A stretch of DNA of 64,000 nt from the NCBI GenBank assembly GCA_963921795.1, contig OY997643.1, positions 18,077,195-18,141,194 of the forward strand. Reading direction: 5' to 3'. Numbering within the stretch: position 1 is the first letter of the stretch; every line of letters begins with the position of its first letter. The DNA comes from Nannobrachium achirus (Eukaryota; Chordata; Actinopteri; Myctophiformes; Myctophidae). The notes beneath the pieces were generated by a model that did not search any database, was not told the DNA's origin, and saw only the letters and a list, made by a program, of their open reading frames with translations. Shown here one piece after another: positions 3,542-58,040 of the stretch. A program made the position numbers and the translations under genes.

Positions 3542-3956
3542 CAGGGGTCTTCAACGTTTTCAGGCCACAGACCCCTTAGTTGAGAGAGATGAAGCAGGGA
3601 CCCCCACAACCTGTTCATAGATTCCATATAGTTTCATCGTTTGACAGCACAATCATCAGTGTATTTTGGATTCATGTTAATTTGTGTTTTCAGATATTTA
3701 ACCACTTGAACCGTCAATACTTAATAAACTTGACCTTTCACTCTGTACTTCTGTTCCCCCTACACCCAAACCTCTTTGCCGAAAATAGCTGATCTACAAG
3801 CTTGTAGATATGCTATTTTTGGCTACAGTCCTCAGAATATGGACACTAGTGTTCAAGTTGTTCATAAAAAAAGGATTGGAAGATTTGGAGGACCCCCTGT
3901 AGTAACTCTATCTGAGGACCCCCTAGGGGTCCCGGACCCCCTGTTGAAGACCCCTG
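3542..3956. mobile_element. hAT-like MITE, family A, with perfect target duplication
   Basis: The element starts CAGGGGTCTTCAACG and ends GTTGAAGACCCCTG. It is flanked on both sides by the same 8 bp, TCCTAATG (3534-3541 and 3957-3964), which is the target-site length of hAT transposons. There is no transposase. A compact copy of the AAAATAGC...GCTATTTT palindrome lies at 3781-3822. Relatives occur at 15711-16151, 29056-29485, 29832-30230 and 35151-35620. Confidence 0.9.
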
Positions 3957-4299
3957 TCCTAATGGGTTGACTGCTGGCCTCCCTCCAAGCAGACATGGCC
4001 TTACCCCGACCGCTCAACTGAAAACCATGTTGAACATTTCCTCCTATAATAACATGCCCATTATAGGCATGTCAGGTTGAAAGTGGTTAAAGAGGGATTT
4101 TACAGCGTGAGATAGACATGTGTTTCACACACATACAGTTACACCTGTCTGTCAAGTCCTCTGGGCGCGATGAGTCACGCCCTGAGGATGATTGACAGCC
4201 AAGTCAGCCTATGAGTGTGCGCGCCGGTATGTTGGCAGATCCAGGCATCCTGACTCACTGCAAACACAGACACAGGTGAAACCATTACATTCCTCCCTT

Positions 4300-4556
4300 T
4301 AATACCTACGGTACCTAAATCCAATGATGTTTAAATTAATACCTACTCCAACCTAAGTCCAATAACGTTTAAATTAATACCTACTCCAACCTAAGTCCAA
4401 TAATGTTTAAATTAATACCTACTGTACTAAGTCCAATGATGTTTAAATTAATACCTACTGTACCTAAGTCCAATGATGTTTAAATGAATACCTACTCCAA
4501 CCTAAGTCCAATAATGTTTAAATTAATACCTACTGTACCTAAGTCCAATAATGTCA
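4300..4556. repeat. 36-38 bp minisatellite
   Basis: About seven copies of a unit containing AATACCTACT, CTAAGTCCAAT and ATGTTTAAATT, alternating between two subtypes (CTGTACC or CTCCAACC). Non-coding. Confidence 0.8.
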
Positions 4557-4564
4557 AGCTATTT

Positions 4565-4870
4565 TACTTCAATTGAGTATTTCCATTTCTTGATCCGTTA
4601 TCCTTATACCCCACAACACGTCAGAGGCAAATGGTGTACTTTTACTCCACTACAGTCATGTAACAGTTTTAGTTACTGTAGCTTGTAGATCTGTACATTA
4701 ATTTAACAGTTTAAGTTACTGTAGCTTGTAGATCTGTACATTCATTTAACAGTTTTAGTTACTGTAGCTTGTAGATCTGTACATTAATTTAACAGTTTAA
4801 GTTACTGTAGCTTGTAGATCTGTACATTCATTTAACAATTTTAGTTACTGTAGCTTGTAGATCTGTGATT
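4565..4870. mobile_element. Tol2/hAT-like fragment containing a 43 bp minisatellite
   Basis: The left part (TTTTACTTCAATTGAGTATTTCC ... TTTTACTCCACTACA) resembles the abundant fish hAT-like element whose ends read CAGTGGTGTAAAGTAAC. From about 4664 a 43 bp unit containing GTTACTGTAGCTTGTAGATC is repeated about five times. The unit carries GCTTGTAGATCT, which is also the arm of the palindrome family seen across the window. Confidence 0.55.
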
Positions 4871-5085
4871 TTCACTACATAAAGTCGCTGTCGGGAAGAA
4901 ACCCCTTACCTCCATATTCCAACTTATTGTTGTGTTTTTTTGGAGCGGTGAAAGCGCTCCCAATAGACAGGTATGTCTGTGGCTGGCTATGTGGCTGGCT
5001 GGCTGGCTGGCTGGCTGGGTATGTCTGTAGCCTGGCAATACCTTGAGTGGCCACACAAGTTAAAGGAGGGGCGCTGTTGTGCAGG

Positions 5086-5192
5086 CACAAACACACACGC
5101 ACACACACACACACACACACACACACACACACACACACACACACACACACACACACACACACACACACACACACACACACACACACACACAG
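5086..5192. repeat. (CA)n microsatellite
   Basis: About 100 bp of CA repeats. A short (GGCT)n run precedes it at about 4981-5017. Confidence 0.95.
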
Positions 5193-5248
5193 ATTCACCG
5201 CTCCACTTCGAACCGAGGTTTGATTTTTCATAAATTAATGCCCTACTT

Positions 5249-54811: not shown

Positions 54812-54815
54812 TTAA

Positions 54816-55535
54816 TACGTTACAGTTGCCCTCTAGAAGTAAAACTGTAAATTGAAAACGGCTTGAATATTTTATTTTAATTTAGAAACGGTTAATCGTT
54901 TAAGAGGGACAATTCAAGTTGATGATCTAATTTGTCCATGTGTTGTCCAGCCCTTCAACGAATGGAATGCATGTTGCTAACATGTTTAACCCTGCAAGGA
55001 CAACGTTGCTTTTTGGCAACATTTTTTAAATCATTTTTTAAAAAATGTTATAGTTCGTTTTCCTGTTCTTTTTTCACATTAACATCACCATTAAATCCTA
55101 TTGTTTAGTATTACAATGCCATTGGCCACGATATTTGCATATAAATACCCCCCACAGGGGCTGACATTCACACCTCCCTGAGAAGTTGAAATTCCAGCGT
55201 CTGGAGTGGACAAACTCACTTTTTAACTGAAGCTATTCCTCACTAAAACATAAGTAAAATGCCTGTAATATATTTTTTCGTGATCATTAGAATGTCTAGA
55301 ACATGTACATGTTATTATTGTGAAAGATATCCCCAAAATGCAAATTAGAGCATGATTTATGATTTATGGCTATAAAACCTTACAAAAACATGATTAATCT
55401 TTTAACATTACATTTTCCTGTGATTAGGACTTTTTTGGCCTGTAGAAATAATTTGGGTCTTGCAGGGTTAAAATGTTGATTTGATGCTCATATTGACCAT
55501 AGGAAATATTAAGTTGTTGTTTTTTTGCATTCCAT
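54816..55535. other. Spacer without recognisable gene
   Basis: After the interrupted repeat resumes (ACGTTACAGTTGCCC to about 54870) the sequence is AT-rich and unassigned. CCTGCAAGGACAACGTTGC near 54992 and GGGTCTTGCAGGGTTAAA near 55455 form distant inverted ends of what may be another old MITE. Confidence 0.45.
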
Positions 55536-55538
55536 GAA

Positions 55539-55958
55539 TAGGGATAAGACGATAAGCGATATTATCGTTTGTCGTGATTAAAAAACCCTCACGATAATCG
55601 TAATTTAATTTAATTTATCACAATCTCCGTCATGCACTGGGAATCTGGGATCAATTCCCCTTTTATTTGCCAAGGTGCATATCCGGTACCACTTAAACCC
55701 TCTATTGGTAAAACCTACTTATAATATTATACGTACTTGATACAGTCTTTTTTTTCTCACACTACCAAATGTCTTTGCCAAAAAATAGCAGATCTATAAG
55801 CAAGAGTTTGTAGATCTGCTATTTTTTGGCGAATGTTCCGTCCCAGGATAATGGTTGCTGGGGATATTTTCATTATCGCGATAATATCGTAAATCGCGGT
55901 TTCTTTGGTCACAATAATCGTGATATGACATTTTCTTATTCTTATCGTCCCATCCCTA
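55539..55958. mobile_element. MITE family E
   Basis: Begins TAGGGATAAGACGATAAG and ends TCGTCCCATCCCTA, flanked by TCCATGAA and TCCATACA (six of eight). Contains a palindrome at 55777-55831 and mirrored GATAATATCGT tracts. Confidence 0.75.
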
Positions 55959-56714
55959 TCCATACATTCCAGAGGGTCAGACCATATATGGGCAAATGAC
56001 ATCAACGGGCATTGTCACGCTGGAGTAAAAGGAAACTATTTCTGAAATAATAAGGTATTTTTAGTTATAGAAGGCAATTATAATGTATCAAGGCAAATAT
56101 ATTCTAAATTGGTTAAAACAATCTTTTGTTCATTCATTTAATTATAACTAATGGCATTTAGGATTTGACTGTGTAATGTCACGCCTTTTGATATTAAACA
56201 GTACTTTTCATTTGAATCATGTTGGGCAGTGAGTACATGTGAACCACCCCTACATAACAGACAGAGGGTGCCATTTCTCCAACTATAGCTGTAGGGAGAA
56301 GAATTTGTGGCCTCCTATGAATAGTTTTGATCACATCCACTTTGTTTAGTAAATATAACGAAGCAAGTTGTCGTATTCAGTCTGGTCTGTGAAGAAAGAT
56401 GCTCGTTTATATTTGGAAAAGCAACATAAAAAGCAGATGTGATTTGTTTGTTTTTTCACTTTTATATTCTGTTGATCCAATTTTTGTGTTCATATTTGTA
56501 TTAAACAGGTTTTAAAGCCAATAGCTGCTCTATTTTCATTAACATGGTCATTTCCTACCGTCTTAACTCAACCCCAGACCTGTTTTCTAATGTAGAGTAG
56601 CCAATCAATTTTACCCCCCTTTTCTCCCCAATGTAGTTGTTATGCCTTTTGATTCCTCCACACCCACGTCTGAGTGGTCGCTGTTATTCTACTACTGAGT
56701 ACTGACTCATGCCA

Positions 56715-57160
56715 GTTAGGGATGGGACCATAATGTCCTGGAAATAGCTATGCATTGCCTTTGGTTATTGATTTTGTTAATACCTCTGAGATTACAAATT
56801 AAACATTGGCCAAATTGTCAAATATTAGAGGCAGAAATTGTGAAAATAGCCGATCTACATGCTCACAACGCCTCGCGATGTAGATCTGCTATTTTCACAA
56901 TAGAAACGTGTTATACAAAATTCCTCAACTCTTAGTGCTCATCAGGGTGGGGGGTCCCCTGTTAAAATATGATTATTTCGGGGGTCACAGCCTGAAAAGG
57001 TTGTGAACCACTGGCATACACTACCTGTCTTTGGGCTTTGCGCATAGGAGTAAGCGACTTGTTATTGAGCTGAATTATTGTTATATAGTCCTGGAAATTG
57101 GGTTAAATATTCTGGAAAAGTTTTGGAAATTAATTGGTAAAAATTTGTGGGAACCCTGAA
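56715..57160. mobile_element. Composite MITE related to 47467-48540
   Basis: Starts near GGGATGGGACCATAATG, contains TTGGTTATTGATTTTGTTAA and the palindrome at 56837-56901, then GGTTGTGAACCACTGG, and ends GTGGGAACCCTG. The inner block is nearly identical to 47590-47850 in cstf1 intron 4. Confidence 0.65.
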
Positions 57161-57639
57161 GGGATAACATCTCACTCAGCAGTCATTATTGAGTGATAGC
57201 AGCCCGACAGGTTGATATGCCAACGACACGGAGCAGAGGTGGCATATCAACCGCTATTGCACGGTTACTTACTAAATAAATTAATGCATTGACCCAAGTA
57301 AAAAAACAACGACTTATGTCCTTGCTTACAGGAGTGAAAGTGTTGCAGTGGCCGTCCGCAGAGCGCAACGTCGCCTCGACGCAAACAAGGAAGTGTTGAT
57401 CAAATAGACTCCATGTTTGGTTACTGCATTGTCTATTTCTCGCTTCAAATGTTTTCAAAAACATTCTTGAGAGCAACGCTTAGTTCTAAATGTCGCTGTG
57501 TGTTTGTTTACATGGCTGACATGTTGGATACAGCAGAACATTCACACAGTGCAGCATTAGGCAGCGGTCTGTTATAGAGCGGAGCGGTCTGTTATCCAGA
57601 AATATCAGACTGCTGATTTCAGCGATTGACCAATCAGAA

Positions 57640-58040
57640 GCATCGTTTATCGTGATAAAAAACACCCACGATAATCGTATCGTGGAGATTTAATTTATCG
57701 CGAAATCGTCCTCCGTCATGCACTGGGACATTTGCAGAGCTGCATATCCGGTACCATTTTTAAACCATCTATAATTGATCAAATTATAGATGGTTTAAAT
57801 GGAAATAACAAACTTGATAGTCTTTTTTTTTTACTCTCTAACAAATCTCTTTGCCAAATAATTGCCGATCTACAAGCTCACAACGCGTTGCGATGAGTTG
57901 TGAGCTTGTAGATCTGCAATTTTTTGGCAAATGTTCCACCCCAGGATTAATGGATGTTGGTGATATTATCGCGATCTTAAATCGCAATTTCCTTGGTTGC
58001 CATAATCGTGACTTGAAATGTTCATATCGTCCCAGGCCAA
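57640..58040. mobile_element. MITE family E
   Basis: CGTTTATCGTGATAAAAAAC-like start with GATAATCGTATCG, a palindrome at 57851-57929, and the CATATCGTCCCAGG end. An extra short palindrome (AAACCATCTATAATTGATC) lies at about 57763-57800. Confidence 0.65.

Follow-up and report, generated by a model that had tools for sequence, protein, structure and literature searches.

A short hairpin repeat carried inside several transposon families of Nannobrachium achirus

A near-perfect palindrome in the window and in the genome

The stretch studied here is a 64-kb window of the Nannobrachium achirus assembly GCA_963921795.1 (contig OY997643.1; C6:18077195-18141194), which comprises 1.66 Gb in 564 contigs, and the whole analysis covers this one genome. 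Its recurrent feature is a hairpin that lies inside miniature inverted-repeat transposable elements (MITEs) of different families. The unit is a near-perfect palindrome of about 73 bp, with two arms of about 35 nt around a 3-nt centre (GAAAATAGCAGATCTACAAGCTCACAACGCGTCGC and its reverse complement). Full copies span 67 nt, from AATAGC to GCTATT (32 + 3 + 32), and the common unit extends to GAAAATAGC...GCTATTTTC. Almost all of the element is therefore made up of two inverted arms, as expected of a Made1-like repeat. Four window copies fold at -57 to -70 kcal/mol, with z-scores of -13.8 to -15.5 against shuffles.

The first-pass annotation had listed 25 hairpins and about eleven half copies in the window, and these sites proved real. 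The arm is present at each of the 25 and at the four half copies that were given positions. A BLAST search with a 73-nt consensus (E ≤ 0.05) detected 36 hairpin-like intervals, namely the 25 listed, whose coordinates fall inside the intervals or at most 13 nt off, and 11 more. When all loci examined were resampled together (Markov order 1, ten rounds), 0, 0, 0, 0, 1, 0, 0, 0, 0 and 0 intervals appeared vs 124 in the real DNA. The arm AATAGCAGATCTACAAGCTC matched the window 51 times at up to 3 mismatches and 0 times in each of 100 shuffles. Both arms are gapless with no more than 5 mismatches each in 21/25 listed sites; by eye, 29295 and 53210 pair with small indels, and at 29963 and 51206 the second arm is largely lost or degenerate. 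Arm sequence also occurs in tandem: window 4651-4866 is a tandem repeat with an arm-like core in units at 4681, 4724, 4767 and 4810, L006:599-743 holds the arm as a head-to-tail array of six units with a 25-bp period (GTAAGTCACAGCAGATCTACAAGCT) and no hairpin, and L024:5898-6108 has a tandem-like series of three half hairpins at distances of 92 and 89 bp.

Genome-wide, a 20-nt arm with up to 2 mismatches gave 306,815 + 306,195 = 613,010 matches, and its reversed control 0 + 5. A sample of 20 stretches selected by position (200 kb in total) contained 74 hairpin-like intervals, which together make up 3,289 bases or 1.6% of the DNA; 20 of these were at least 60 nt long and 13 were shorter than 25 nt. 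Scaled to the genome, this density corresponds to ~0.6 million loci, fragments included. The hairpin had no match in Rfam at gathering thresholds, a longer arm pattern gave 0 matches in bacterial and archaeal genomes, and the only match of arm 14-mers among 5.39 million PubMed Central (PMC) papers was an unrelated Rhodomonas paper. Two arm matches in viral contigs, both lone arms without a hairpin, were taken as chance and rejected. The literature on MITEs, hAT elements or palindromes, which for the most part meant journals outside subscription, yielded nothing on this repeat.

Host families and sites without the hairpin

Flank clustering and flank classification (E ≤ 0.01), with families delimited by hand from a small sample, led to nine host labels, A, B, C, D, E/E2, G, H, K and M, or eight if C and D are one. 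At the same threshold, 61/74 sample intervals are assigned to a host family by one flank or more, 31 by both flanks to a single family, and 13 by neither flank. Counted singly, 96/146 flanks match a host family; resampling leaves 5-9 such matches, so that about 7 of the 96 are chance. The carriers include what we take to be hAT MITEs (shells with 8-bp target-site duplications, TSDs) and TTAA-type (piggyBac/Kolobok-like) MITEs, along with a core of TA type, and many are nested in one another. An 8-bp TSD together with CAG...CTG-type ends was found in the best copies of C, B, the E shell and M, and many other hAT host copies match in only 4-7 of the 8 bases. The C shells have CAGGGGTCTTCAAC ends, with perfect TSDs outside the window at L020 (CCTTACAT) and L018:4462 (CTTTAGTT); examples for B and M are L018:6645 (GTTTACCC) and L041 (GTTTAGAT). 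TTAA stands at both ends of A (L003:1015-1614, the only A copy clean on both sides) and of the C core (e.g., window 29203-29409), and others have mismatches.

It had been proposed that the hairpin sits in several unrelated hAT-like families with different termini and TSDs. The unrelated flanks were confirmed for seven families: with the hairpin excised and the adjoining flanks aligned (one copy per family, K left out), no similarity at E ≤ 0.05 was found among A, B, C, E, G, H and M apart from hAT ends, which gave the only matches (A-B, B-M). The proposal has to be narrowed in two respects, as C and D share a core and not all hosts are plain hAT elements, A having TTAA ends and the E core being a separate element nested in a hAT. 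The left flanks of C and D are 75-81% identical over 31-48 nt (best E = 2e-5), the right ones match weakly, over 16 nt (E = 0.11), and the two are consequently counted as one acquisition. A single ancestral element with the hairpin, whose outer parts later changed by nesting, end swapping or divergence, could explain this common left flank, the TTAA ends of both the C core and A, and the fact that E, E2 and J resemble one superfamily by eye, with the hairpin in one place. Such descent is nevertheless quite unlikely, given the dissimilar adjoining flanks of the seven families, the different TSD types of the hosts and the existence of B- and M-type hAT copies without a hairpin.

The hairpin lies in a core and the core in a hAT shell, an order that follows from the E core standing at two places of one hAT and from the C core lying inside C shells. 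The hAT in question hosts the E core at different places in L032 and at window 58371 (element 58257-58785), each copy providing the empty site of the other. The filled borders read AAAATA, then TCGTC...ACGA, then TATGCTATAAA, vs AAAATATGCTATAAA when empty, which is a TA duplication; this pair carries the claim, as the TA ends from an end-pattern scan are not independent (the pattern begins and ends with TA). A C-type shell with neither core nor hairpin is present at L018:8837-9062 (TSD CATTACAT).

Hosts lacking the hairpin were also searched for genome-wide with queries spanning the joint. For B, with a query derived from the relative at window 26833-27140, joint-spanning copies were found and 11 sites were read, of which three are clean (L056, L057 and L061, GAAATAGAACC); compared with the filled GAAATTGTGAAAATAGC...GCTATTTTCACAATAGAACC, they indicate a duplication of AT (or AAT). 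A first B query had given supposed empty sites that were rejected, since 6/6 of those read (L050-L055) are partial deletions. The M query gave 44 matches (2588 candidates, 40 scored) and 11 joint-spanning sites were read; two of them, L067 and L077, have a clean joint that contains one TA (GGACCCAAACTACTTC). Most other M matches run from the query start to position 67 or 69 (...AAACTA) and then stop, as expected if the hairpin follows the TA; for M copies recovered through the flank only, the match to the query likewise ends at AAACTA. TA stands on both sides of the hairpin in E, H and the M copy L014:8997, which belong to the unbiased sample; other M loci with TA were picked by a pattern containing TA. 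The coordinates of the hairpins and of selected hosts in the window are given in Table 1.

Table 1. Host elements, hairpins and half copies in the 64-kb window
Positions	Strand	Feature
3542-3956	+	Host C hAT shell, 8-bp TSD TCCTAATG both sides
15711-16151	-	Host C hAT shell, TSD 7/8 matching
29056-29485	+	Host C hAT shell, TSD 7/8 matching
29203-29409	+	C core with TTAA ends (up to 3 mismatches allowed), nested in C shell, contains hairpin
29832-30230	-	Host C hAT shell, flanking bases 4/8 matching only
35151-35620	+	Host C hAT shell, TSD 7/8 matching
58257-58785	-	Host E hAT shell, 8-bp TSD TTCTAGAC both sides
58363-58582	-	E core nested in E shell; probable TA duplication, by comparison with L032
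12296-12559	+	E core with hairpin, no surrounding E shell seen
26833-27140	-	B-type hAT without hairpin, relative of B hosts
52011-52536	+	Host family A, hairpin near each end
3781-3819		Hairpin, C core, inner part deleted
5827-5899		Hairpin, full, E core (AAGCAC/GTGCTT)
12411-12477		Hairpin, E core, small tandem duplication in left arm
15851-15896		Hairpin, C core, degraded
20576-20646		Hairpin, family A first end
20896-20943		Hairpin, family A second end, inner deletion
21396-21455		Hairpin F, no host assigned; symmetry extends further (AAAAGAAGC)
29295-29364		Hairpin, C core
29963-29983		Hairpin, C core, second arm mostly lost
35434-35505		Hairpin, C core
36210-36280		Hairpin, family A first end
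36449-36519		Hairpin, family A second end
41166-41230		Hairpin, one flank weakly M-like (may be chance)
46653-46712		Hairpin, family D
47678-47734		Hairpin, family B (CATGCT/AGCATG)
49725-49790		Hairpin, family D; symmetry extends further (GCGTAACATTTGCC)
50289-50359		Hairpin, family A
51199-51236		Hairpin, second arm degenerate, no host assigned
52053-52123		Hairpin, family A first end
52405-52475		Hairpin, family A second end
52808-52878		Hairpin, family A first end
53210-53284		Hairpin, family A second end, one arm with indels
55782-55825		Hairpin, family D, inner deletion
56842-56896		Hairpin, family B, partial deletion
57860-57923		Hairpin, family D
4852-4873	-	Half copy adjoining E2-like flank
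33323-33360		Half copy, E core
37826-37865		Half copy
37988-38009	-	Half copy, E-like
40726-40753	-	Half copy, family B
49992-50021		Half copy, family A
51572-51598		Half copy, E-like
52548-52583	-	Half copy, E-like
53335-53370	-	Half copy, E-like
58441-58474	-	Half copy, E core within hAT
62412-62445		Half copy, no host assigned

Arm changes and the origin of the hairpin

The annotation had further claimed that the arms co-vary and that their pairing therefore appears to be maintained. The covariation holds between families and fails within them, and maintained pairing was not borne out. The arms were compared in 39 full 67-nt hairpins, comprising 23 from the window and the loci and 16 of 17 81-nt rows found with a genome pattern (C1:35807254 was excluded for its shifted arms); these 16 loci were chosen by a pattern that includes a TA at either border. 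Copies with arm indels are left out, and with only full hairpins used, degraded ones are under-represented. Between families, E carries AAGCAC/GTGCTT (pair 19; 19/39 hairpins) and B copies carry CATGCTC/GAGCATG, the pairing set having only one B hairpin. Two-sided changes occur at 14/32 pairs, and 93.9% of cells are paired vs 87.8% after shuffling. Within family A (11 copies, 352 cells), 31 changes are one-sided and 1 is a two-sided paired change, where shuffles average 4.2 two-sided. Family E (19 copies, 608 cells) has 37 one-sided, 9 two-sided paired and 3 two-sided unpaired changes; shuffles average 5.6 two-sided changes and reach at least 9 in 13/500. Of the 9 in E, five represent a single subfamily change at pair 3, and three fall at pair 7, where either side is polymorphic; once both pairs are set aside, 27 one-sided changes and 1 two-sided change are left, vs 0.5 in shuffles. 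Neither A nor, with those pairs set aside, E thus has more two-sided changes within its lineage than chance would give. Between the two arms of one copy the distance is 2.82 (A) and 2.11 (E); between copies, where taking the better of two comparisons lowers it, the distance is 1.60 and 2.13, respectively.

Once acquired, the hairpin follows its host. Among hairpins labelled by their flanks alone, the nearest neighbour is of the same family in 17/17 cases, vs 6.4 when shuffled. This test was redone on the 23 flank-labelled hairpins because 13 E labels among the pattern-found ones depend on AAGCAC, itself a feature of the hairpin, which makes them circular. Taken with the within-family counts, which do not exceed those of shuffles once pairs 3 and 7 of E are set aside, it follows that single copies are not kept paired and that the hairpin changed symmetrically when a family was founded. 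Copies differ mostly by one-arm mutations and by partial deletions. A hairpin that is functional and selected, as a structure for transposase binding or replication or as a source of small RNAs, would account for arms that are alike in hosts with unrelated flanks, for the two-sided changes and paired cells of the full set, for the very stable folds and for the rarity among shuffles of E's nine changes. We consider it very unlikely, as the counts in A and in E without pairs 3 and 7 speak against it, deletions are common among the sites read, Rfam has no match, and the excess of G-T (41) over A-C (22) mismatches is weak and confounded with CpG. Selection at the RNA level was not concluded from that excess, with which CpG decay and strand choice are confounded. 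Covariation of arms between families need not imply selection for structure.

Outside the unit the flanks are family-specific, yet often mirrored across the hairpin for about 8 nt, e.g., TTGTG/CACAA (B), TAGTG/CACTA (E, M), TTTGCC/GGCAAA (D) and GTGCTG/CAGCAC (G). Across 59/60 flank pairs, left-right identity at positions 3-6 is 0.78, 0.54, 0.76 and 0.69 vs 0.45, 0.27, 0.31 and 0.30 in 200 re-pairings; at position 8 it is 0.58 vs 0.32, and position 7 has no clear excess (0.46 vs 0.41). In E, M and H this symmetry is partly just the TA on both sides, the first hairpin of family A is unmirrored beyond the unit, and long private symmetries occur at window 49709-49806 and 21369-21482. A hAT-like 8-bp TSD of the hairpin itself was rejected, since the flanks are inverted and not direct repeats and the junctions are of 2 bp.

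The symmetry of ~8 nt that is specific to each host and the long private symmetries would also fit template switching, in which a polymerase, during replication or break repair, jumps to a hairpin elsewhere via a few matching bases and then back, leaving a whole or truncated hairpin in a new host. Several single loci point the same way. The hairpin-less site of M (AAACTACTT) equals the E flanks AAACTA + TACTT, the hairpin at L028:3782-3838, bordered by two 21-bp direct repeats (TTGAAACCACGCCCACTCGTT), is cut short at either end, L029:848-946 joins E shell and core to a C right flank by way of a hairpin remnant, and at L007:1501 both flanks are of the C left type. Homogenisation of arms by template switching has been described in yeast (PMC8604942). 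As the main route of entry it is rather unlikely, because the TA found at either border in three families and the 2-bp junctions are explained as well by insertion, and there are few direct cases, one truncated and one chimeric.

The explanation that we place first, with confidence evenly balanced, is a very short palindromic, Made1-like repeat of MITE type, which is a passenger amplified by its hosts and was acquired more than once. Several unrelated DNA-transposon MITE families would have taken up the hairpin separately and then copied it within themselves; the unrelated flanks, the different ends and TSDs and the hairpin-less relatives argue for separate acquisition. Its entry may have been that of a very short palindromic MITE, Made1-like and of Tc1/mariner type, which duplicates 2 bp (TA) and is mobilised in trans, and insertion at TA is favoured by the TA in E, M and H and by the 2-bp junctions. 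Most of the ~0.6 million loci would then derive from transposition of the hosts and not of the hairpin itself. The extension of flank symmetry, the chimeras and the symmetric changes between families may have come from template switching at the palindrome, and not from selection for pairing.

Several observations weigh against acquisition of such a repeat by insertion. TA is absent at the hairpin borders in A, C/D, F and G, the duplication in B is AT, and hairpins with unassigned flanks have no consistent target duplication by eye. E and M have 4 + 3 nt in common outside the TA (AAAC..CTT), for which independent TA insertions would give about 1 in 16,000, a coincidence noticed post hoc. Neither a transposase nor a longer arm-ended element was found and no autonomous relative is known, a transposase-directed search not having been completed. 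Among the B sites read, 5/11 are scars or unclear (L058, L060, L063, L064, L066) and 3/11 still have the hairpin or most of one (L059, L062, L065), and the other 9/11 M sites are scars, remnants or unclear. The queries that found the clean junctions carried the joined sequence, and these junctions could equally be deletions via TA or AAT microhomology, deletions being common among the B and M sites read. As deletion gives the same clean product, the sites establish that hairpin-less hosts exist and not which state came first, and the first-pass suggestion of a hairpin that is a mobile element of its own is a possible reading of them, as is deletion.

It is also conceivable, and in our judgement unlikely, that the hairpin, which would have no transposase sites of its own, passes from one MITE to an unrelated one when templates are switched at short matches, as a hyper-parasite at ~0.6 million loci whose palindrome would be the joint at which transposon halves are swapped. 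Such a hairpin would be to the nucleus what the mobile palindromes are to mitochondria. Should the host-amplified passenger be correct, a unit too short to code would be among the commonest sequences of a 1.66-Gb genome, riding transposons with different target duplications, and its copies, in their hundreds of thousands, would serve as natural replicates for testing how palindromes get into animal DNA and how they decay and recombine there.

Neighbouring features and known systems

Apart from the hairpins, the window contains a 507-nt inverted repeat (53487-53993 and 54309-54815) that is 99.6% identical and probably much younger than the surrounding MITEs. A 1373-aa C2H2 zinc-finger frame, WD40 frames (presumably CSTF1-like) and a reverse-transcriptase fragment are located at 22640-26761 (-), 44662-48806 (+) and 60423-60995 (+), respectively. 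There are also many long (CA)n arrays (e.g., 1736-2041, 2417-2851, 6294-6599 and 9042-9341), which are read as Cys-Val or Thr-His frames.

Made1 is a human element of the Tc1/mariner type with a TA target duplication. It is described as a near-perfect palindrome of two 37-bp terminal inverted repeats around 6 bp that folds into a hairpin and gave rise to mir-548, with 7,850 annotated copies in human (PMC1784062). The fish hairpin resembles it in being a very short near-perfect palindrome with a stable fold, here with two ~35-nt arms around 3 nt and, in E, M and H, a TA at either border. It differs in that most sampled copies lie inside other MITEs, that ~0.6 million loci compare with 7,850, and that TA is not present in all hosts.

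Mobile palindromes have also been reported from mitochondria. The GC clusters of yeast (GC42) are flanked on either side by AG or ACT repeats, sites from which a cluster is absent have one AG, and the palindromes are shuffled (PMC4478555). Short mobile palindromes with 2-3-bp direct repeats, single-target absence sites and merger or shuffling of palindromes would be common to both systems, whereas GC42 is mitochondrial, 42 nt long and GC-rich and the present hairpin is nuclear and lies inside DNA transposons. The repetitive hairpin-forming elements of sponge mitochondria have conserved stems and invade existing sequence (PMC2800124). Conserved stems and the invasion of existing sequence by a hairpin would be shared traits, but the sponge elements, as portrayed there, are mitochondrial and have no transposon carrier. 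In our case hAT and TTAA-type MITEs are the carriers, and the hairpin is an internal insert and not their terminal repeat. A further parallel may be drawn with the clustered Ac-mMITEs of pineapple, for which adjacent insertions at (TA)n are reported (PMC8449440). MITEs stand beside MITEs in both genomes, and unlike in pineapple, here one small unit is carried inside unrelated families.

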